From: Siphlonurus alternatus
Taxonomy: Eukaryota; Arthropoda; Insecta; Ephemeroptera; Siphlonuridae
NCBI GenBank assembly: GCA_949825025.1
Contig: OX463781.1
Coordinates: 6,551,370 to 6,615,369, forward strand
Reading direction: 5' to 3'
DNA: 64,000 bases
In this document: one piece after another, positions 296-57,917 of the stretch
How the letters are laid out: each line of letters starts with the position of its first letter
Numbering within the stretch: the first letter of the stretch is position 1
Notes under the pieces: generated by a model
What the model saw: the letters and a program-made list of their open reading frames with translations, nothing else
The model's database searches: none
What the model was told of the DNA's origin: nothing
Made by a program: the position numbers and the translations under genes

Positions 296-315
296 CAATT
301 CAATTCAATTCAATT
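296..315 (-). repeat. LINE 3' microsatellite tail (AATTG)n
   Basis: Four CAATT units on the plus strand are (AATTG)4 at the 3' end of the retrotransposon in its own orientation. They follow an AATAAAT and replace the poly(A) tail. CR1/L2-like LINEs commonly end in short tandem repeats of this kind. Confidence 0.7.
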
Positions 316-461
316 CATTTATTCAATCAACTGGCTGTACAAGTACAACATGGATTAAGTCATTCCTAATAATAACATTAAAATTACATAACATAAAAAC
401 ACATCAAAATAACAATAATTCATAAAACTATCAAGATATGAAATACAATAGATACAATCAA

Positions 462-3416
462 TTAAAAAACAACATTAGACAGTATATCTTCTGGCAACTT
501 ATTACAAAAGTACATTTTTACAGAGTACAATTCCTTATTTATAAGAATATTTTTTAATTTTTCTTTAAATAATTTTTCACTTTCAACTTCTCTGAGACAT
601 GCGGGTAAAAAGTCATAAATTTTTGCAGTCTGGTAAGCGGAACTTTTTTCTAATAAACTCGAATTATGCATTTCTAACACTATTTTATCTCTATTTCTAG
701 TATTATAAGAGTGAAATTCACCATTATGAATATATAACTCTGGATATTTCTTCTTGAACATTGCACAATTCAAAATATACATGCTTGGCAGTGTTAGTAT
801 TTTAAGTCTCTTAAAATGACCAACACATGAGTCATGCTTTTTAAAACGTAAAATTGTTCTAATTGATCGCTTTTGTAATACAAATAGTCTGTTTAAATGG
901 TTTGAATAACTACCCCAAAAAATAATGCCATACGCCAAATGAGAATAGACATATGCATAATAAATGGAGAGTAATGTATCTTGTGATACATAATCTCTAA
1001 TTAAATAAAGTGCAAAATTAGCATGATTAATCTTCTTACAAATCTCGTCAATATGAATACTCCAATCCAACGATTCATGTATATTGAGTCCAAGAAATTT
1101 AATATTTTGTACCCTATTTATTAATCCTGTTTCGGACTTAATGTAGTAACTATGATCTGGTTCCCTTATTTTCGTATGGAATTGAATATAAAATGTCTTG
1201 CTAGTATTTAATAGAAGTCTGTTATTTGAACACCAGGTTTCTACTTCTTTCACAGTTTTATTAGCTTTATAAATTAGCTCCTCTTCTGTGTTTGCTGATA
1301 TTAAAGCAGTCGTATCGTCTGCAAATTTTATAATATCAGCAAAAGTTACATTATTAGATAAGTCATTCGTTCCAATACTAAACAGGGTTGGAGAAAATTT
1401 TCCACCCTGTGGCACCCCTAATGAGATATAGCGGGTAGTAGAGATGCTACCTAATTTTACATATTGAGATCTGTCAGAAAGATATGATTGTAATAGTGTT
1501 AAACTACTTGAATCGCAACCGAGTGACGATAATTTAGTAAGTAAGATATTTTTATCAATACTATCAAACGCTTTAGACAGATCAAAAAATATTGCAATGC
1601 AAAATTTTTTTGAATCCATATTCTTATATATAGGATTTAATAAAGCATATGCTGCAGTAGTAGTAGATTTATTTTTTAAAAATCCATGTTCAGATTTGGA
1701 AATTAATTTATTTTCAATTCTGTAATCCATTATTTGATCATCTAAAACTTTTTCAAATACTTTTCCGAACACAGATGACGATGAAATAGCTCTATAATTA
1801 TTTAATAAATTAATAGCTTTTTTCCTATCTTTAATCAGTGGATTTACTACTGATTTTTTTAATACTGATGGAAATAAAGCGTCATCGATGGAATGATTAA
1901 TTAATGATGTTAAGGGAACCGCTAAAACTTCTGCACAATATTTCAAAACTTTGTAAGACACTTCATCAGGGCCGGCCGCGTTTTTATTTGGAAGTGATTT
2001 AATTATTTTAAGAATATAAACAGGAATTATTTGTTTAAAATAAAATTCATTACTATTTACATTTAAATTAATACTATCAACATTAATAGTAAATTCTTGA
2101 CTAGGTTCCGGGTATTTGTTTTGTATCATGTTTTCAACTGTTGAGATAAAATAATCATTAAATGCATTACTAATCTCAACAGGATCAGTGATGTTATCAC
2201 CTTCAATTAACAGTTCCTTTATAAGTAAATTTTTAGGAACCTTTAAATTACATTCTCGTTTAATTATTTGCCAAATTGCTTTAATTTTATTAATTGATGT
2301 ATTAAAATAATAATCATTGTCTCTTAATTTAGCCTCCGCAATATTTACTTTATGACTTTTTACCTGATCTTTATAAGTCCCAGAGAGCGATGGATTTAAT
2401 TTTACTTTATTACACAATAACCTTAAATTTTGACTTTCCGAAATTAAATGAGGGTTCCTTTTAAGCCAACTTGGAACCTCTGTCTTAATTTTTTCAGATT
2501 TAATTTTTCGGGGACATGCTTCATTAAAAAGAGATAGAAATATTTCAAAGAAAGATTCCCATCTCTTTTCAGAATTAACATTCCCTTCTAATAAAAGAGA
2601 CCAATCTTCTTTAATTAGTAACTTCAATAGATAATCCATATTATCTGGATTACACTGTCTAACCGTGTATCTTCTATCCAAAACTTCATTTTTAAAATCC
2701 CTATTTTCAAATGATATATCTATAACTGAATAATCATGATCAGAAAGTTCTGTGGCCGATGTATTTATAAAGAGTGTTTTAAAAAAGTCTTTATTTGTTA
2801 TAACATGATCAATAATAGTACTTGATTTCACAGTTTTTCTTGTTGCAACATTATTTATAACACTTAAATTAAAAGATTCCAATAAATCTAAATAAGAGTT
2901 CAAATATCGACTTTTCTTTAATATATTTATATTAATATCTCCAGTGATTATAAATGAATCATTTTTATTACATACTTTCAAAAGCATTTTACATAATTGC
3001 TCTAATTTTATAAGAAAAGGTTTCATATTTGAATCATAATTTATATTTTTACCACCAATTTTTAATGTTATTAAATCATTTGAATTTTCTGGAGGTCTAT
3101 ATAATGAAGTTATAAATAAATGCTGATTATTACCGATTTTTATTTTTGCAATGCAACATTCGAAACATGACTGAACAGATTGGACTGACACATTAAGAGC
3201 AAATATGTTATTCTTAATAAATATTGCAACACCCCCACATTTTTTGTTAATTCTTGAAAATGATGATATCAAATTGTAATTTTTAAACAATATTATACCT
3301 ATTTCAGATTGAGACAAACCATGCTCACAAATTACAAGAATATCAATATTTTTTTCTTCAATTAATAATTCTAATTTCTTAACTTTAGTTCTTAAACCAG
3401 GGATGTTTAATTGCAA
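462..3416 (-). CDS. LINE ORF2: AP endonuclease plus reverse transcriptase polyprotein
   Basis: The protein has about 984 residues counted from the TTG at 3416, with no internal stop. Residues 1-235 form an AP-type endonuclease: Asn4 in LNIPGL, Glu31 in ICEHGL, Tyr106 in SLYRPP, Asp160/Asn162 in ITGDININ, and the SDHD motif at 225-228. This domain nicks target DNA to prime reverse transcription. Residues 470-730 form the reverse transcriptase: FDLSKAFDSID at 611-621, GVPQGG at 667-672, FADD at 698-701. Residues 770-984 form the usual CR1-like tail with YGIIFWG at 829-835 and LQKRSIR. Some positions depart from the common consensus, such as YRAIS for YRPIS and GGKFSP after GVPQ. There is no ATG before the endonuclease motifs. 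The open frame extends upstream only to 3515, overlapping ORF1, so translation probably depends on ORF1 (frameshift, re-initiation or a non-AUG start). Confidence 0.9.
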   Translation of the reverse strand: MQLNIPGLRTKVKKLELLIEEKNIDILVICEHGLSQSEIGIILFKNYNLISSFSRINKKCGGVAIFIKNNIFALNVSVQSVQSCFECCIAKIKIGNNQHLFITSLYRPPENSNDLITLKIGGKNINYDSNMKPFLIKLEQLCKMLLKVCNKNDSFIITGDININILKKSRYLNSYLDLLESFNLSVINNVATRKTVKSSTIIDHVITNKDFFKTLFINTSATELSDHDYSVIDISFENRDFKNEVLDRRYTVRQCNPDNMDYLLKLLIKEDWSLLLEGNVNSEKRWESFFEIFLSLFNEACPRKIKSEKIKTEVPSWLKRNPHLISESQNLRLLCNKVKLNPSLSGTYKDQVKSHKVNIAEAKLRDNDYYFNTSINKIKAIWQIIKRECNLKVPKNLLIKELLIEGDNITDPVEISNAFNDYFISTVENMIQNKYPEPSQEFTINVDSINLNVNSNEFYFKQIIPVYILKIIKSLPNKNAAGPDEVSYKVLKYCAEVLAVPLTSLINHSIDDALFPSVLKKSVVNPLIKDRKKAINLLNNYRAISSSSVFGKVFEKVLDDQIMDYRIENKLISKSEHGFLKNKSTTTAAYALLNPIYKNMDSKKFCIAIFFDLSKAFDSIDKNILLTKLSSLGCDSSSLTLLQSYLSDRSQYVKLGSISTTRYISLGVPQGGKFSPTLFSIGTNDLSNNVTFADIIKFADDTTALISANTEEELIYKANKTVKEVETWCSNNRLLLNTSKTFYIQFHTKIREPDHSYYIKSETGLINRVQNIKFLGLNIHESLDWSIHIDEICKKINHANFALYLIRDYVSQDTLLSIYYAYVYSHLAYGIIFWGSYSNHLNRLFVLQKRSIRTILRFKKHDSCVGHFKRLKILTLPSMYILNCAMFKKKYPELYIHNGEFHSYNTRNRDKIVLEMHNSSLLEKSSAYQTAKIYDFLPACLREVESEKLFKEKLKNILINKELYSVKMYFCNKLPEDILSNVVF

Positions 3417-3459
3417 AATCCTAATTTTATTAAGAATAACAATATTATTACATGAAATG

Positions 3460-5529
3460 TTATGTTTTTTTTTGCTTCGGCTTTTGTGTTGAGAGGGTAC
3501 TATTTTTTCGAGATCTTAAACACATTGCATTTTCATTAGAAATATCAACAAATTGATCTTTTAAAACAGAACCTTCATTTGTAGTTAATGGTAAATTATT
3601 TGCACGTTTTTCTTTGAACGACTCAAATTCTAACCACAAACTTGTAAGCATTTTATTAATTTTACTAGATGCTAATAGAGTTAATGGTTGTACATTTGAC
3701 GATGATAAATTTGTGGGTGTCTGCTTATCTAAATAATTAATGGCACTTAAAATATTAATAACATGCATACCAAAGTGACATTTCTTGAACTTATCCGGAC
3801 AATCCACAATACTGCACAAAGAAGGTTGAGGTAGGCCGTTCTCATCCCTCAAATGTGGGGGACTGTCGTTCACCACCCCGAGGGCGGAAACCTCCTCGGC
3901 GGGGCGCATGTCGTTCACCGACGCGAGGGCGGAAACCTCCTCGGCGGGGCGCCCGTCGTTCACCGCCCTGAGGGCGGAAACCTCCTCGGCGGGGCGCGTG
4001 TTGTTCACCGACACGAGGGCGAAAACCTCCTCGGCGGGGCGCCCGTCGTTCACCGCCCTGAGGGCGGAAACCTCCTCGGCGGGGCGAGTGTTGTTCACCG
4101 ACGCGAGGGCGGAAACCTCCTCGGCGGGGTGCATGTTGTTCACCGGCGCGAGGGCGGAAACGTCCTCGGCGGGGAGCATGTTGTTCACCGGCGCGAGGGC
4201 GGGAACCTCCTCGGCGGGGCGCCCGTCGTTCACCGACCTGAGAGCGGAAACCTCCTCAGCGGGGCGCATGCTCTCCAACACAAGGCCTGACTTCAGCTCA
4301 TTCGGGGCGGATGTCATCTGCTTACGAAGCTTAGCTGTTGCTGGCACCGACAACCCCTCCAACTCAACTGTGTCAGGCGTGGCAGTAGAAGAGCGGGTAC
4401 TCATTATAGATGTAATGAGTGTTTTTTTGCTATTCTCCAGTAACAAAGTTTTTGGTGATGTTTCACGATCATTTGATTTCCAATCATAGTATGCTGTAAT
4501 TTCAATGTCCAAATCTTTAAATATATTAATGATTTGTTTCTTAACATCACGCCAAATTAACTTATCACGTCCACAACCAATACGAGGAATAGCCAATTTT
4601 GCAATTTTCAATATTTCACACACTTTTCGTAGAGCTTTAAGAGATGATACGAAGTCGTCCATAGATGGAAAATGATTGCATTGTTTTTTAGTTACAAGAT
4701 AAAATATATACTTATCATCTACTTGAAGTACAGCCACTTCTCCTGTATGCTTAAGTTGACTTTTCAAAAATGGTACTTCTTTAAAAGTGATTTTTACGTG
4801 CTTTGCTACACCTCGAGACATTGCAAATTTCTCATCTACACAGTGTGCATACGATACACCAGCAGGAGAATCAAACATATTTCCTCTTTTCTCAATAAAT
4901 TTGAAATTACGATGTTTTTCGTAATTTTTTACAATAACTTGAATATTATTGTTTGCTGGAAAACGCCGCTGTTGAGGTAGATCAGTTTGGTTATTATTTA
5001 CATATCTCAGCTGCTCGAAAGAATTCCGTAGCGGCAGCGGTTGATGACCCTGAGATGCAAACATACGAGGAGGAGGCCGAAATGCACGTGGTGGCGGCTG
5101 TTGCTGGAATGTTTGCCCTCTTTGCCTGCTCGAACCTCTGTTGACACGAGTCCAAGGTCTTTCTGCGTTCTCTTGATGATTTATATCATGATGATATTCA
5201 TAATTTTTCCCAGAATTATTTGACAAATTTGCATAATTTTGACTATTTTTTTTTATGTCATATACTACATCTTTTAAATTAGTCATGCCATTTAACAAAT
5301 GTTCAATGTTTTTCTGCATTTTGACAAGCACAGGATGTGTAAAAATATCATCACGAGAACTTTCTGGTGAACTCATGCTAACAGATTGTTGAACACTATT
5401 AAAACTATTTTTATTGTTATTATCAGATGGCCAGCGTGCTGGTGGAGGTTGACTTACAATATGATGAATTTGAGATCTTGATAGAGGCGGATAATCTTCA
5501 TATCTCCCCATAGAGTACGCCATATTCAT
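3460..5529 (-). CDS. LINE ORF1 protein with TARG1/OARD1-like macrodomain and 15-residue repeats
   Basis: The open frame starts after a stop at 5557-5559. The first ATG is at 5529, and a second at 5523 (AATATGG) has better context. Residue numbers here count from the first codon of the open frame (5556). Residues 74-106 look like a short coiled coil, and 130-205 are a basic, Gln/Pro/Arg-rich likely nucleic-acid-binding stretch. Residues 218-357 match the OARD1/TARG1 macrodomain: GNMFDSP, YAHCV, GEVAVL, YLVTKK, IPRIGCGRDKLIW. Lys290 and Asp331 align with catalytic Lys84 and Asp125 of human TARG1 with identical 41-residue spacing. TARG1 removes ADP-ribose from acidic residues of proteins. Residues 430-564 are nine 15-residue repeats (PAEEVSAL core). 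Cys581, Cys586, Cys593 and His598 could bind zinc. It sits directly upstream of ORF2, in the position of a LINE ORF1. Its role in retrotransposition is inference. Confidence 0.85.
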   Translation of the reverse strand: MNMAYSMGRYEDYPPLSRSQIHHIVSQPPPARWPSDNNNKNSFNSVQQSVSMSSPESSRDDIFTHPVLVKMQKNIEHLLNGMTNLKDVVYDIKKNSQNYANLSNNSGKNYEYHHDINHQENAERPWTRVNRGSSRQRGQTFQQQPPPRAFRPPPRMFASQGHQPLPLRNSFEQLRYVNNNQTDLPQQRRFPANNNIQVIVKNYEKHRNFKFIEKRGNMFDSPAGVSYAHCVDEKFAMSRGVAKHVKITFKEVPFLKSQLKHTGEVAVLQVDDKYIFYLVTKKQCNHFPSMDDFVSSLKALRKVCEILKIAKLAIPRIGCGRDKLIWRDVKKQIINIFKDLDIEITAYYDWKSNDRETSPKTLLLENSKKTLITSIMSTRSSTATPDTVELEGLSVPATAKLRKQMTSAPNELKSGLVLESMRPAEEVSALRSVNDGRPAEEVPALAPVNNMLPAEDVSALAPVNNMHPAEEVSALASVNNTRPAEEVSALRAVNDGRPAEEVFALVSVNNTRPAEEVSALRAVNDGRPAEEVSALASVNDMRPAEEVSALGVVNDSPPHLRDENGLPQPSLCSIVDCPDKFKKCHFGMHVINILSAINYLDKQTPTNLSSSNVQPLTLLASSKINKMLTSLWLEFESFKEKRANNLPLTTNEGSVLKDQFVDISNENAMCLRSRKNSTLSTQKPKQKKT
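3465..3473 (-). other. A9 run at the ORF1/ORF2 junction, candidate +1 frameshift or slippage site
   Basis: On the coding strand, nine consecutive A residues lie immediately before the ORF1 TAA (3460-3462). ORF2 is open in the +1 frame relative to ORF1 from 3515 onward, so a +1 (or -2) slip on this run would read through into ORF2. ORF2 has no ATG between its upstream stop and its endonuclease domain. The mechanism is inferred: re-initiation after the ORF1 stop or a non-AUG start would also fit. Confidence 0.45.
3865..4269 (-). repeat. 45-bp coding minisatellite, nine units, inside LINE ORF1
   Basis: Nine tandem 45 bp units encode a 15-residue repeat with core PAEEVSAL followed by VND or VNN. 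All units keep the ORF1 frame. The array is strikingly GC-rich compared with the AT-rich ORFs on both sides. Adjacent units alternate between two flavours ending in VND-G and VNN-T or VNN-M, suggesting expansion by duplication of unit pairs. Long open frames on the opposite strand are a by-product of this composition. Confidence 0.95.
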
Positions 5530-5890
5530 GCACAGAACCTCAAAACTGTATTTCACTTATTATCACACCACGATTATATTATCACACTGAATTTTTGTAA
5601 AAAAACACAGAGTATATAATTAAAATTATAATAACACTAACCTAATGATTATACAATATCAATTAACACTTTAAATTTTCAATTTTGTAAGAGCAGAATA
5701 GAAACAAGATTTATTACTCGGAGGTGCTGCCACCTACTCCTAACAACAATTACCTATTTGGTTACACGCTGCGAAGTGCGACTCTTCAATATTTTTTATA
5801 ACATATAGACTATTTGTCTCGATGTCAGAGTCATTGAATATTGAATATATTTTTTTATTTTAGAAAATAAACTTTTGTTGGTCAAGACAG

Positions 5891-19095: not shown

Positions 19096-21671
19096 TTAAG
19101 GGTGTACTGCAGCTCCCAATCTAGGCCCATAAAAAGAATATGGGTAATAAGGACCCATTGCAGTTGGGTTAAAGGCGCTGAATGGCGATGCTGCAAGAGA
19201 TGGTGGTAATCCACCTGGTTTGGAGTACGGATGGTACCTGGCAGCTGACAGTGGACTCAGGGGTGGGTTGGGGTAACGCTGACTCAGTAACGGATGATTG
19301 GGGTTTGCACTTGGGCTCAAGAGGGTCCCAGCCGCCTCAGCCGCGGCCGTGTGGGAGCGGAGGTGCTGCAGAAGTTCCTCAGAAGTGGAGAACCTCTTGC
19401 CACAGTAGTTTTCACCGGCGATCCAAGAACACACGTACGGTCTTCCGGAGGAGGCGGCGGCGGCCGCGGCGGCTGCAGCAGCGCCCAACTGGTGGGAGTA
19501 CGAGGACATTTGAGGGGCTTGAGCCTGGGACTGCTGCATCAGTGAGAGTGCAGCTGCCAAACCATACTTATGATGATCACACTGTGTACATCCACTTGGA
19601 CAATGTTGCTGTTGTTGTTGTTGCTGTGCAGCTGCAGCGGCAGCAAGTAATTGTGCATTATGCATACTTAATTGACAACCAGTGCAATAAGGATCTTTAC
19701 AAACTGGTACTAATGTTTCACCACCAGATGGAGTTTTAACACGAGCATAACTTACATAAGGTGGCATACCAAGTGCCGATGGTGGATAACCAGCTGCTAA
19801 CATACTATGAGCAAAACCAGGGAATGGAGATCTAAATGCTGGATTTGCAGCAGCAGCAGCGGCAGCAGCTTCTAATCCAGGGGGACAACCAGCACATAAT
19901 GAACTTAATGAGCTTAATCCATGGTTACTCATTAAGCCATTAGATCCATGTTTATATGAAGCACCTAATGGTAAATCTTTATGAGGATGTCCTTGCAGTA
20001 TTTCAAGTCCTGAACGAATGATTGGACTTGCACCAGCTGCTCGGGGAGATTCTGATTTCTCATTGATTGGTTTGGGAGAATTGTTGTTGTTATTGTTGTT
20101 GTTGTTACTAGGAGACTGAGATTTGCGGCCGCCGGCTGGGGTGCGTGAACCACCTGACGAGGGAGACTTCTTGCCCTCTCCTCCCTCGCTGCTCACTTTG
20201 GAGGCGGGGCGCTCTTGGCGGGTCAGGGGGATGTTTTCGTACGGCTTGAAGGCGAGCTTGGCGGACGACGAGGTGTTGGAGGACGTGTCCGAGGGAGAGT
20301 GACTGCTCACGTGGTGAAGTTTCTCCGACTTGTCGGCGGACGAGCGCTCGGCCGAAGACGCCGCGTTAGCCGAGGAGCTGCCATGCTCCTTCTTCGGTTT
20401 CTCCATTGGTGGGAGAAGAGGCTTCGTAGATGGCGAGTCCGCACCGATTTGACTGCATGTCTGAGCTAGTAAAGCCAATGGACTTTTCTTAGCATCCAAC
20501 TGTAAAAATAAGAAAAAAGAAAAAAATTGTAAAATAACATTAAAATTCGAATATAATAATAAAAAAACTAATAAAAAAGCAATTTAGTGTATAGAAAATG
20601 AAAAAATAATATAAAATAATAAAATATTAAAAAAAAAATAATAATGTTTTTTAGTAGGAAGGGGTGATGATATATTGCCTGTCGGAAATGAGTATGCTTT
20701 TAGTAGAAACGTGCCATAAAAAGAAGTAAAAAACATTATAGAAGGAGGACTAGGCTAAGCCAGCATCTACTAGCACCACACACATACTAAAAGTGAGGAA
20801 ACAACGTAGTAAATTTTCAACTTCACTGACACGTAACAGCATCCCCCGTCTTACTGCATGCAGCAAAGGCTTCATAGCGATGATATACGAGATGAATGCA
20901 ATTTATGACCCGGCTCATAACTATTACAGAACGCGGAAGTATATCGTAAACTCTAGTTATAGGGCTAATTACAGACAACTTCAACGAAAATGTAATAATA
21001 AAAAAAAAAAAAAAATTTAAAATGTAATAAAAATGTTATAAATTATTTCGAATGGATAGATATAACAATTTGAAAACTCAGAGAAGAAGAAAAAATATCA
21101 GCAATGTTTACTGAAATTTCTTACATATTATTGTGTATGTTTGTTTCATTTCAATGTCAAAATTAGTATTAAAATCATTGCCGTCACAAATGCATTGAGT
21201 ACTGCACGAATTAAAAATACTGCAGTTTCTGATTCAATAAGATCACAAAACCCTTCTTGTTTCATTTCTCATTTACTGCATATTCATATAATATACATAA
21301 CTGCACGGTCTCTGATTTGATCGCTCGCTCCGTCCCTTATTTTATACCAGGCAATGTGATGCATAAAGTAACATTGCTTTTGATTCATGTTTTCTTATTA
21401 AAAATCATTTAGGACACTATTTTATGAAAATATCTGTCAAGAGAAAAAAAAAACAAGTGAATATCCTCCAAATTCTAAGTCCCACAACAGAAGTTGAAAC
21501 TACTATAGATCAAAGAGGGAGAGTAACATTTTGCAATGAAATTTGGATCTATTTGTAGGTAATTCTGCGAGGATATTAACTTACCGTGGTTGGAAGAGGA
21601 GAAAGATAGTCGGGCTGCAAATACTGATTACTCCCCGAAGTCAACATTCCACCGCCGTCTAACACCACCAT
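19096..21671 (-). CDS. noc: Zinc finger protein Noc/Elbow-like (NET family), two coding exons
   Basis: The coding sequence joins 21671-21585 to 20499-19096, for 29 + 467 = 496 residues. The NET family (Noc, Elbow, Tlp-1; Nlz in vertebrates) comprises nuclear transcriptional repressors; in Drosophila, Noc and Elbow act in tracheal and appendage development and bind Groucho. Full-length positions: conserved SPLALLAQTCSQIG at 35-48; FKPY, the Groucho-binding type motif, at 113-116; an Asn run at about 161-169; Ala and Gln runs; the diagnostic segment ARVKTPSGGETLVPVCKDPY at about 281-300; one atypical C2H2 finger with Cys386, Cys395, His408 and His412; and the C-terminus GPRLGAAVHP. The donor (ACG/GTAAGT) and acceptor (TTTTTACAG/TTG) are canonical and phase 0, giving the expected LPTT-LDAKK junction. 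noc versus elB cannot be separated with certainty. Third-codon GC is high at both ends of exon 2 and low in the middle. Confidence 0.93.
20500..21584 (-). other. noc: noc intron 1
   Basis: The intron is 1,085 bp with GT-AG ends. The segment at about 20680-20990 is more complex than the rest (for example CATCCCCCGTCTTACTGCAT and TATGACCCGGCTCATAAC) and could hold an intronic enhancer. The short plus-strand frame over it (20793-21020) has no coding support. Confidence 0.85.
21585..21671 (-). CDS. noc: noc coding exon 1 (29 codons)
   Basis: This short first exon encodes MVVLDGGGMLTSGSNQYLQP followed by DYLSPLPTT, the conserved N-terminus of insect Noc/Elbow proteins. It ends exactly at a GTAAGT donor (21584-21579). 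The ATG is at 21671-21669, with G at +4. It supplies the true start for the 467-codon exon 2, which begins with TTG (Leu) at a splice acceptor. Confidence 0.92.
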
Positions 21672-31130: not shown

Positions 31131-31635
31131 AATGGACAACATACATGAAAAAATTTTATTGCAGAAATGAATAGAGAGCACCAAATTATGCTACTCTGAA
31201 TTTTTTCACATTTTTTTGAGACCCGGAACTATTTTTAAATAATTATTGAAAGTTCTGTAATTTCAGTTGGCACCTCTGAATTCTTAATAAAAAGGATAGG
31301 TGGCGTCCCAATAGTCCTATTCTCGTCTACTACCCTCTTCCCTGCAATGGCGGCAAATTTAGGGCGCATCATATGCGCCCTTCTTATATAGCGGCCATCT
31401 TGGAGGGGAGGGGAAAGATCATTTAGGGACTCTAAGTAGACGAGAAATAGTATTGGGACACCGCCTAGAGACTGGACGCCTATTGACGCCTCCAGGGGGC
31501 GTGGCCGCACTTTCATTAATTATTTAAAAATAGTTCTGGGTTTCAAAAAAATCTGAAAAAATTCAGAGTAGCATAATTTGGTACCCTCTATTCATTTCCG
31601 CAATAAAAAATTTTCATGTCTGTATGTTGTCCATT
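31131..31635. mobile_element. Fold-back element family A, copy 1 (505 bp)
   Basis: The arms begin AATGGACAACATACATG and end CATGTCTGTATGTTGTCCATT. Within each arm is a shared segment with TTATGCTACTCTGAATTTTT, and GAGACCCGGAACTATTTTTA marks the inner part. The centre (about 31260-31490) is GC-richer, with ATGGCGGCAAATTTAGGGCG, CATATGCGCCC and its own inner inverted repeat (TAGTCCTATTCTCGTCTACT versus AGTAGACGAGAAATAGTATT). Copies at 50657 and 61040 share the arm sequence but have different centres. No coding capacity. Confidence 0.8.
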
Positions 31636-46900: not shown

Positions 46901-48097
46901 TGAGGGTGAGTTATTTGCTAATATTTTAAGTGTTAACACAATTAATTAACTTAAATCACATTTTCACAACATATATAGTAAATTTTAGTTCACATATATT
47001 AAATATATTTAAAAAAAAATAAAAAATAAAATAAATAAATTTGATGGAAAAAATATATTTATGTATAAAATTTATATTATATAACGTTATGCAAACCCAG
47101 GTAATTATAATTATACGATATAATTACGATATAATTATCGTATAATATATAATAATTATATTGCATGCATGCAATGTACAATATATTCTTTCACAATTGA
47201 AATGAAAATTGTTATTGATTTAATGTGTTTATTTTTTATTTATTAATTGGTAGTTTTAATAAATAAAAAAAAGCAACTTTATAATATGTTTTTTCTTGAT
47301 AATTCCAGTAATTCCAGCTTACAAACATAAAAATATGTACAAAATTTAATATCTTATGATATTGTATATACACAGGTACATATAGACATAGGCAGATTTA
47401 CACTCAAAAATATGTTTCTTCCTAGCCATCATTTTCAGTAATCAAATAACCCCAAAACAATGATTATAATACGGGGATGTCATTTTACGAAAAATTTACA
47501 TTTTATCATTAAAAAAAATACTTATTATACAGCAGAGCTATACATTTAATTTAAACTTTTCCCGAAGAACTGCCACCTTACGTTTTGTATGTATATAAAA
47601 TGTTAGTAACACCTTGATTTATTTAACATGGTAATTGCGATATTAATTATTTTCAAAACACGTTGAGTAATTTGTTTTTACTTTAGACATATTACTCCTA
47701 CGAGTCTGACAGCTTTTAAAAAAATATGTTTTTTATTATTATTTATAACACACAAAAGATTTGTTGGCAAAGATATAATATTTTTAATTTGTGTATTTTT
47801 TATGCAAACATAAATAGTGTTTAATTTATGGTAAATGCTGCAACGCTAATACGTGACTAAAATAATATATTACTGACGTTATTTTGTTGATAAAATGTTA
47901 ATATGCGCATTTACGCAACAATATATTTTAAAGTAAAATTTATAAAACTGTTATAAAACAACAATTATTTTTTTATTCTTTTTTAAATTTTTCGTTGATG
48001 CTAAATTCTTCCACAAAAATTTTTCTTTTAGATAAAATTAAAATTTTAGATAGCCCTTTTCTAAATTAAAGTATTTATTAATATTTATTAAATCAAA
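43923..48097. other. Intergenic desert upstream of the MORN gene
   Basis: The island at about 45225-45390 (GATGACGTGCGGCAATTAAA, CCTGCAATTAAATCGTGGCC) contains homeodomain-type AATTAAA cores. AT-rich elsewhere, with imperfect ATTATCGTATAAT-type palindromes at about 47105-47165. No gene. Confidence 0.4.
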
Positions 48098-48706
48098 ATG
48101 CCAACATTAAAAAGCCACAATTTTGAATTACCAAGATCAAGACTTATTGAAGAAAATACGAAGAAACAAGGAAGATTTTGTGAAATTTATAACCCATCAA
48201 ATTCTGATTGTTATAAAGGTGAATGGAAAAATGATAAAAAATATGGAATTGGAGAATTAAAAAAATCTAATGGATATTTATATATTGGAAAATTGAAAAA
48301 TAATAAGAAACATGGTTATGGAATGTTAAAAAAATTGAATGAAGATACAAATAAATATGAATTAATTTATGAAGGAGAATGGAAAAATGATTTACAACAT
48401 GGACAAGGTATTGGATTTTATCCTGATGGAAGTTATCATGAAGGTGAATATAAACTCGGAAGAAAAAATGGCAAAGGATACATGGTTTATAAAGATGGTT
48501 ATCATTATACCGGTGAATGGTTAAATGATCAAATGCACGGATTTGGAATTTGGACCAACCCAAACGGAAGTTACTACGAAGGGCAGTTCGTCGGTGGAAA
48601 ATTCCATGGACGTGGACAGTTTGTGATGCCATATAGGAACTGTCTACTGCGGGGAGTGTGGCGAGACGATGATTACTTCAGTGGCGAGAGTTTAGAGGAC
48701 AAGTAG
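48098..48706 (+). CDS. MORN-repeat protein, MORN3-like, single exon
   Basis: A 202-residue protein with six full MORN repeats (Y-x-G-x-W then G-x-G) starting at residues 39, 62, 91, 114, 137 and 160, and a partial one near 183 (LRGVW). Examples are YKGEWKNDKKYGIG, YEGEWKNDLQHGQG and YTGEWLNDQMHGFG. The spacer between repeats 2 and 3 (NEDTNKYELIYEGEW), the short N-terminal lead and the tail FVMPYRNCLLRGVW match the layout of MORN3 better than the shorter MORN4/retinophilin. MORN modules bind lipids or act as scaffolds; MORN3 is linked to sperm formation in mammals. The ATG has A at -3. There is no signal peptide, membrane segment or intron. AATAAA follows the stop by about 50 bases. Codons are AT-ending until about residue 150, then GC-ending. 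Lack of introns could mean a retrocopy, but the frame is intact. Confidence 0.85.
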   Translation: MPTLKSHNFELPRSRLIEENTKKQGRFCEIYNPSNSDCYKGEWKNDKKYGIGELKKSNGYLYIGKLKNNKKHGYGMLKKLNEDTNKYELIYEGEWKNDLQHGQGIGFYPDGSYHEGEYKLGRKNGKGYMVYKDGYHYTGEWLNDQMHGFGIWTNPNGSYYEGQFVGGKFHGRGQFVMPYRNCLLRGVWRDDDYFSGESLEDK

Positions 48707-50675: not shown

Positions 50676-50710
<35 letters not shown>

Positions 50711-50998
50711 AGAACTGGATAGAACGTGCAAAGTTATGCTACCCTGATTTTTTTCAGATTTTTTAGAGCCCGGGAAGTATTTTTAAAAAATTATTGAAAG
50801 TCCTTTTTGTGACGTCACGCGGCGGCAAGTCCTATCTTTTTCTTAAGGAACTGCGTCTCTTGACGTCACAAAAATAACTTTCAATAATTTTTTAAAAATA
50901 GTTCCCGGGCTCTAAAAAATTTGAAAAAAATCAAGGTTGCATAACTTTGCACCCTTTATCCATTTCTGCAATAAAAAAATTGAGGTCAATACTCCATT
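50657..50998. mobile_element. Fold-back element family A, copy 2 (342 bp)
   Basis: The arms begin AATGGAGTATTGCATGTCCT and end AGGTCAATACTCCATT. The arm core GTTATGCTACCCTGATTTTT and AGAGCCCGGGAAGTATTTTT matches copy 1 at 31131. A T29 run (50680-50708) expands the left arm. The centre carries two TGACGTCA sites in inverted arrangement (50810-50817 and 50861-50868). Confidence 0.85.
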
Positions 50999-56705: not shown

Positions 56706-56709
56706 TTAA

Positions 56710-57113
56710 AGGTAGAGATAACGCCGATCAGCTGTTCAACGCAGGTCCCTTTGATTAGCATGTAAACCTTAGCAAATTTACAAAAATTCTGAATTTTTTT
56801 TGTGAGGCAGATATTAGTGCCTAAAAGCTAAAAGCCATGATAGAAAAAATTTCAAAACAATTTAACGAGCCGATTTTTTTTCAATTATTATTTTTTTTTT
56901 AATTTTCAGCATAGGGCTTTTCCATTTGAGAGACAAACTAAGAACTTAATTAAAAAAAATCGTCTCGTTAAATTGTTTTCAAACTTTTTCTATTGCATTT
57001 AGGCACTAATATCTGCCTATTAAAAATTTTTCAGAATTTTTGTGAATTTGCTAAGGTTTACATGTTAATCAAAGGGAACTACGTCGAACAGCTGATCGAC
57101 GTTATCTCTACCT
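56710..57113. mobile_element. Fold-back element family B, near-complete palindrome (404 bp)
   Basis: The left end AGGTAGAGATAACGCCGATC and right end GATCGACGTTATCTCTACCT are reverse complements with one mismatch. The arms stay closely matched inward (CATGTAAACCTTAGCAAATT, GCAGATATTAGTGCCTAAA, AACAATTTAACGAG) almost to the centre. TTAAA flanks both sides if the element is taken as starting at GG, consistent with a short AT-rich target duplication. No ORF. Confidence 0.88.
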
Positions 57114-57917
57114 TAAAGAAGGGTTTACATGTGAGTGATTTTTCAGGATAAGACGCGTTTGTTATTTAACAATAATTTGACGTTTTTCTACACGTTTTTC
57201 TGATGATGACCTATTTGTTTCTGAATACATAGAATGGATTTTACGGAAAATGCGTCTCAAAACACGTCAAGCTTCCGACATTTGGGGGAAAAAACATGTT
57301 CATGTAAATCTATGACGTATAAAGTTGGCTTAGATATTTTAAATTTTATTAGGCTTATTGGTCTATAAAAAGTAAATTTATATTAGTTATTGGTAGTATG
57401 AAAGTAGTAATAAAAACTCCTATATTATTAATTATAATATATGCAATAACTTTTACAACTAGTCTAAAAAAAAAAGAAAAAGTTAAGGTATATTATGGCT
57501 TTAGGTGTGTCGATGTTTATTAGCATGTTATTAAATGTTAATGAAGTTATGTTGTATTATGTATGCCCGCCCTTGTGTATCTAAAATGGGTGGGGACCAA
57601 CAATTTTATAAATAATTTACGTGGAAGTATCAGAATACAAAGACTAAAAAGACATATTACCACATGGAAAAATACTATAATTAATTTTTATTTAATAAAT
57701 TATGAATTATTATAAAAGAATTGTTGTTATTTTATTTGACATGATAAGTTCTACCTCCACATCGAAAATTTCGCATTATAGGTGGTCTCTTTAACTTTTT
57801 GACATCCAAATTTTACATTGTACAGACTTTTGCAATAAAACAATTTTCAATCGCCTATATATATTATAATATTATATACATACTGCGAATTAATGATTAA
57901 ATGTAGGTAAAGCCCTT

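Follow-up and report, generated by a model that had tools for sequence, protein, structure and literature searches.

A TARG1-type macrodomain in the ORF1 proteins of LINE retrotransposons of the mayfly Siphlonurus alternatus, a candidate ADP-ribose eraser

Can a LINE (long interspersed nuclear element) carry its own ADP-ribose hydrolase, and what would the enzyme do for it? The question is raised by a retrotransposon in a 64,000-nucleotide stretch of the mayfly Siphlonurus alternatus (GenBank assembly GCA_949825025.1, contig OX463781.1, positions 6,551,370 to 6,615,369 of the forward strand; hereafter the window), which we class as a LINE from an APE-type endonuclease (EN) and reverse transcriptase (RT) in its open reading frame 2 (ORF2) and an ORF1 lying upstream. 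A sequence-only reading of the window had placed a TARG1-type macrodomain at residues 218–357 of ORF1, with both catalytic residues of TARG1 present. Comparison with known structures bears this out, as ORF1 residues 216–356 match human TARG1 structures with E 7e-28 and the next class, bacterial DarG, follows at E 4e-6. Foldseek with the predicted structure of the domain returned TARG1 chains at ranks 1–8 (best E 9.1e-16, TM 0.93 on target), and the fold is thus predicted to be closest to TARG1. The superposition on TARG1 that the earlier reading had proposed is ungapped over 139 residues, and both it and the sequence alignment pair TARG1 Lys84 and Asp125 with Lys290 and Asp331, which keep the spacing of 41 residues. 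In the profile check proposed alongside, Pfam Macro gave no match to the full ORF1 at E≤1 and only E 0.096, under its cut-off, to the isolated domain, so that routine annotation would miss the macrodomain.

The domain thus shares fold, ∼40% identity and the Lys84/Asp125 pair with TARG1 (OARD1, C6orf130; an ALC1-like macrodomain hydrolase), but TARG1 itself is a small stand-alone protein of the cell, whereas the LINE version is an internal domain of ORF1. The DarG antitoxin macrodomain, partner in a bacterial toxin–antitoxin pair, is more distant (19–26% identity). Viral macrodomains (alphavirus nsP3, rubella p150) are likewise encoded by selfish genetic agents, but show only 11–17% identity in the model alignments, below TARG1 and DarG, and their carriers are viruses and not LINEs.

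The macrodomain is part of the copied mobile unit

A search of the genome (G000, 455.7 Mb in 102 contigs) with ORF1 brought up 432 candidates, and the 64 that were scored gave 122 matches. All 20 loci fetched (∼9.9 kb each) contain a macrodomain-bearing ORF1 with an adjoining EN/RT ORF2, as expected if macrodomain and RT travel together in many copies. Among these loci the ORF1 frame is interrupted in L010, L012, L013 and L014 and shorter in L020, and ORF2 is split in L024. We named the families A (the window element), B, C, D, E and onward; these are labels of this analysis. Copies of D are 99.0–99.97% identical over 4.9–5.7 kb and those of E 98.4–99.8% over 6 kb, with differing flanks, while no convincing target-site duplication was seen in the 19 loci scanned, longer shared strings (L026, L027, L012) being simple repeats or element-internal. 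In a search with ORF2 (46 scored of 8,491 candidates), the stretches upstream of six others with 50–55% ORF2 identity were read, and five contain a full macrodomain-bearing ORF1 (two members of F, and G, H and I). The remaining one, L073, belongs to family E, and its match starts only at residue 438. A second G copy, L077, also has the macrodomain, its ORF2 being placed from the ORF2-search coordinates. Copies lacking the domain would speak against the sequence-only reading, but all four that we checked are read as 5′-truncated: L073, the family A copy L007 (ORF1 only from residue 512), and the B copies L075 and L076, which are 100% identical to B downstream of the truncation point.

Human TARG1 as query gave 150 genomic matches (E 3.5e-39 to 2.6e-24), that is, all 150 scored of 311 candidates, so the true number is probably above 150 and the domain occurs beyond any host single-copy gene. 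Seven places among these matches were read as short stretches. An endonuclease frame follows the macrodomain-bearing ORF1 in L131 (family J) and L129 (family L; EN match weak, 5e-5, in a frame that continues into the RT of L132) and comes next in L133 (family K) and L134 (family M); the RTs of L and M were read in L132 and L135, and for J and K only EN was read. L127 and L128 contain short TARG1-like frames resembling host TARG1 genes, judged from the frames alone, L127 having no usual first motif in frame. L130 (C3:10610700-10612600) has a frame of 568 aa in which two TARG1-like macrodomains stand in tandem, followed by a Ser/Tyr/Gln-rich repeat. In the first macrodomain Lys84 is replaced by Arg and Asp125 by Asn, and the second keeps Lys and Asp; no EN or RT match was found within the 1.9 kb read.

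Altogether a macrodomain-bearing ORF1 stands with EN and/or RT in 31 elements (the window, L009-L028, L069, L070, L071, L072, L074, L077, L131, L133, L129/L132 and L134/L135), sorted into at least 13 families, whereas the sequence-only reading had thought of a single one. Family L gives the clearest view of copying. Among 113 scored of 818 candidates, 24 copies span at least 361 of the 362 query residues at 98–100% identity, every one stop-free, and 17 more without a stop (94–100% identity) start at varied points and all reach the query end, the pattern expected when target-primed reverse transcription leaves copies 5′-truncated; the remaining partial copies end early, are split or contain stops. 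Dispersed near-identical copies, 5′ truncation and a simple-repeat or A-rich 3′ tail are what a LINE leaves, and the macrodomain is copied along with the rest of the element. That the arrangement is an assembly artefact, or a host gene beside an unrelated LINE, is barely conceivable, since nothing found speaks for it, 31 elements at separate places share the arrangement and the family L truncation series runs through the domain; a host single-copy gene or misassembly is ruled out on the same grounds.

RT lineages and origin of the domain

An RT tree of 72 rows was built from families A–E, L and M and 65 database proteins (P0066 left out beforehand, P0002 dropped for want of RT), the organism-named rows among the latter being two Hydra, two Pieris and one Helianthus. 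A–E form one group (100/99), L falls with P0055/P0057/P0061 (97/78), and M, whose partner is P0037 (99/98), lies near two Hydra proteins. Macrodomain-bearing ORF1s therefore occur in three RT lineages, with seven families in the tree. On this tree, branches with strong support impose three changes of the macrodomain label (the comparison ORF1s being unread), and a single change sufficed in 0% of 200 bootstrap trees. Outside this tree, F–I were assigned to A–E by whole-ORF2 identity (50–55%) and J and K by endonuclease similarity.

The macrodomain tree has 44 rows, including 23 of 49 bacterial and viral-contig rows after 60% identity thinning and omission of the fragment L126. Animal and LINE sequences split from these 23 (99/93), which disfavours a bacterial origin, and LINE macrodomains sit among the TARG1s of human, rotifer and this host. 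Because the LINE domains lie within animal TARG1s and apart from the bacterial and viral-contig rows, their most likely source appears to be an animal TARG1, captured once and swapped between ORF1s or captured several times: LINE macrodomains came together in 0% of 200 bootstrap trees, yet the approximately unbiased (AU) test gave p 0.41 for one LINE origin.

The comparison rows come from 33 viral-contig (L078-L110) and 16 bacterial (L111-L126) TARG1-like loci found through the family alignment, with frames of 84–168 aa and no LINE among them. A counterpart of Lys84 is present in 31/33 viral-contig and 15/16 bacterial rows, and of Asp125 in 28/33 and 16/16. Single-sequence scans of viral_contigs and genome_contigs yielded nothing.

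Outside the genome, ORF2 has 67 matches (ORF1s unread), the best being P0002 at 48%. The only protein-database match at 384–1221 aa is a rotifer protein, P0001, with the macrodomain at the end of a coiled-coil-looking protein and no RT in it, and the only one at 143–455 aa, P0069, resembles a piece of a cellular TARG1. In the open-access literature, that is, outside Repbase, Dfam and subscription papers, no title retrieved pointed to a macrodomain in a LINE ORF1. A survey of 448 Jockey-superfamily ORF1s names RRM, CCHC, Tnp22, PHD, esterase and zf/lz domains, and the words ‘macro’ and ‘ADP’ are absent from its text as available (PMC4120745). A comparable case is the esterase (SGNH) ORF1 of CR1/L2 LINEs (type IV; ZfL2-1, PMC3905857), which also places a hydrolytic enzyme domain within ORF1 and occurs in more than one LINE lineage (PMC4120745), but that enzyme is unrelated and a lipid or membrane role is proposed for it, whereas here homology points to an ADP-ribose hydrolase. 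An SGNH-like stretch after the macrodomain in the family M ORF1 was noticed by eye only and rejected (Pfam 0 families at E≤10; PDB one match, E 1.3).

Selection on the domain and its possible function

The catalytic pair is kept in 61/61 macrodomain copies of A–E (14 different sequences, of which one contains a stop and another an 11-residue gap). As these copies were retrieved through their similarity, and many of D and E are near-identical, independent support comes from the families, where Lys and Asp are kept in 14 of 14 sequences (13 families, F counted twice), including H, whose macrodomain is only 25–33% identical to the other LINE macrodomains compared. We estimated ratios of nonsynonymous to synonymous substitution (dN/dS; NG86, bootstrap 95% intervals). 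For F1–F2 the ratio is 0.049 (0.02–0.09) in the macrodomain, 0.40 in the N-terminal and 0.76 in the C-terminal part of ORF1; the corresponding values are 0.19 (0.05–0.56), 0.40 and 0.55 for G1–G2, and 0.10 (0.05–0.19), 0.56 and 0.74 for A–B. Among the ten A–E pairs, dS of the macrodomain is saturated in five; the other five gave 0.096–0.159 for the macrodomain, 0.122–0.266 for ORF2 and 0.32–0.55 for the N-terminal part, ratios that are rough because dS is high in these pairs. Purifying selection thus acts on the macrodomain with a strength of the order seen for EN–RT. Short TARG1 frames like those of host genes in L127 and L128 would provide material for a host exon captured by chance, without function for the element, but such a passenger is very improbable with macrodomain ratios of 0.05–0.19, low only in this part of ORF1, and with three RT lineages and a deep divergence through which the dyad is kept. 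The preserved domain suggests that the elements use it, perhaps against a host defence that tags them.

That the ORF1 macrodomain is an active ADP-ribose eraser is our inference, and so are its hydrolysis, its substrate and its benefit to the element. TARG1 reportedly cleaves O-acyl-ADP-ribose, protein mono-ADP-ribose and phosphoester ADP-ribose at nucleic-acid ends (PMC7050489), as well as thymidine-ADP-ribose, for which Lys84 is required (PMC8501950). The reading that we favour, with some reserve, is that the macrodomain in the LINE ORF1 is a hydrolase domain that stems from an animal TARG1 gene and serves as an ADP-ribose eraser at the target site. The endonuclease nick would be expected to activate host PARPs; ORF1p, coating the element RNA, would carry the eraser to the site, where it could strip the ADP-ribose put by PARPs on nicked DNA ends, RNA or ORF proteins. 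The primer end would then stay usable and the particle unmarked, and PARP-based interference would be countered.

The domain might instead be a reader whose binding of ADP-ribose anchors the ORF1 particle on PARylated chromatin (nicked and open) as a means of targeting, without relevant hydrolysis. ALC1-like macrodomains do comprise readers as well as erasers (PMC7050489), and reports from human cells place PARP1 and PARP2 at L1 integration sites and find that loss of either lowers L1 retrotransposition (PMC8535693), which a reader would suit. A pure reader, however, need not keep the dyad through all the A–E copies and 13/13 families, and we regard this alternative as unlikely.

The host genome gave 22 PARP catalytic-domain matches (26/26 candidates scored; an exon-wise count, so fewer genes), and six of the 22, with open frames up to 976 aa, lie within 50 kb (C8:24922550-24972709). 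This looks like an enlarged PARP set beside what insects usually have, which would suit an arms race, as a correlation only. One could therefore propose, tentatively and with clearly less confidence than the eraser itself, that at least three LINE lineages gained a TARG1 eraser by repeated capture or ORF1 exchange as a counter-defence against this enlarged PARP set, acting at the nick or on the particle. The PARP cluster could also favour a trans-acting suppressor, in which excess ORF1p lowers ADP-ribosylation in germ cells generally (antiviral-type PARP signalling or modification of retroelement RNA) and not in cis at the integration intermediate, and it has been suggested that ADP-ribosylation may mark RNA of transposon or viral origin (PMC7050489). 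Such a suppressor is still less likely than a reader, as a domain that is fused to ORF1 instead of free, and that copies retain intact for themselves, fits a cis role.

Several points weigh against an eraser at the target site and its use in counter-defence. The human L1 data imply that PARPs are not simply hostile to LINEs, and removal of ADP-ribose could harm the element or act at a later step; an ORF1-borne eraser may thus act after PARP has done its part, or prevent host interference. The position of TARG1 Ser35 is Asp or Gly in 10/10 LINE sequences compared, so pocket details differ from TARG1. Of the family A copies read, only two reach the macrodomain, and L010 among them is broken. The G1–G2 macrodomain interval is wide, the PARP matches amount to a correlation within a single genome, and the protein database yielded no macrodomain-bearing ORF1 from another species.

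LINE ORF1 proteins are poorly understood, and with an enzymatic domain of known chemistry the part that ORF1 plays at the integration site can be put to a direct test. The 13 families, among them several that have numerous open copies almost identical to one another, provide a natural experiment, with the catalytic Lys and Asp as targets for mutation. If the counter-defence were real, ADP-ribosylation, a known virus–host battleground, would be an anti-transposon system tied to retrotransposon control in animals, and these would be the first LINE-encoded anti-PARP proteins.

Layout of the element and other features of the window

The coordinates of the element are collected in the table.

Table. 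Features of the family A element in the window (positions of the window)
Feature	Position	Strand	Remarks
ORF1	3460..5556	(-)	uninterrupted 698-codon frame counted from GTG; own-genome copies
First ATGs of ORF1	codons 10, 12, 16	(-)	residue numbering starts at GTG instead
ORF2, APE-type endonuclease and reverse transcriptase	462..3416	(-)	984 codons; +1 frame relative to ORF1
TARG1-type macrodomain	4486..4905	(-)	ORF1 residues 218-357; sequence and structure comparison
Lys290 codon, counterpart of TARG1 catalytic Lys84	4687..4689	(-)	sequence alignment, superposition
Asp331 codon, counterpart of TARG1 catalytic Asp125	4564..4566	(-)	sequence alignment, superposition
GC-rich 45-bp tandem repeats (15-residue units), ORF1 downstream of macrodomain	3812..4357	(-)	9 overlapping registered copies of 186-nt reference, spacing 45
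AGGTGGCAGCACC motif near presumed 5′ end of element	5723..5735	(-)	common to families A, D, E
3′ tail (GAATT)n	296..316	(-)	read in window; families B and C alike

ORF2 matches RVT_1 (2.8e-30) and, just under its cut-off, Exo_endo_phos_2 (5.6e-6). The window ORF1 matched 0 Pfam families at E≤1, and RRM/CCHC, Tnp22, PHD and esterase domains (ORF1 types I–IV) were not found within the sensitivity of Pfam. The two frames are 43 nt apart in the frame listing, but at the junction (3416-3480) ORF2 has no starting ATG and overlaps the end of ORF1 in the +1 frame, with an A-run before the ORF1 stop; this arrangement suggests frameshifting or termination–reinitiation. Families B, D and E have the same junction, and their ORF1s also contain the 15-residue tandem repeats, which are GC-rich within an AT-rich element. 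Closely related copies differ in ORF1 length, with 713 and 743 aa read in B and 772 and 782 aa in D. The 3′ tails are (GAATT)n in families A–C and A-rich in D and E.

Elsewhere in the window, a C2H2 frame at 19096-20583, which we take to resemble noc/elbow, gives in Pfam a zinc finger only, under the cut-off. A MORN-repeat protein gene lies in a single frame at 48092-48706 (+) (Pfam MORN, E 3.1e-24). Long imperfect inverted repeats at 56706-57117, 50699-50979 and 31139-31623 have arms of 115–150 nt that are 83–91% complementary, and look by eye like miniature inverted-repeat transposable elements (MITEs).
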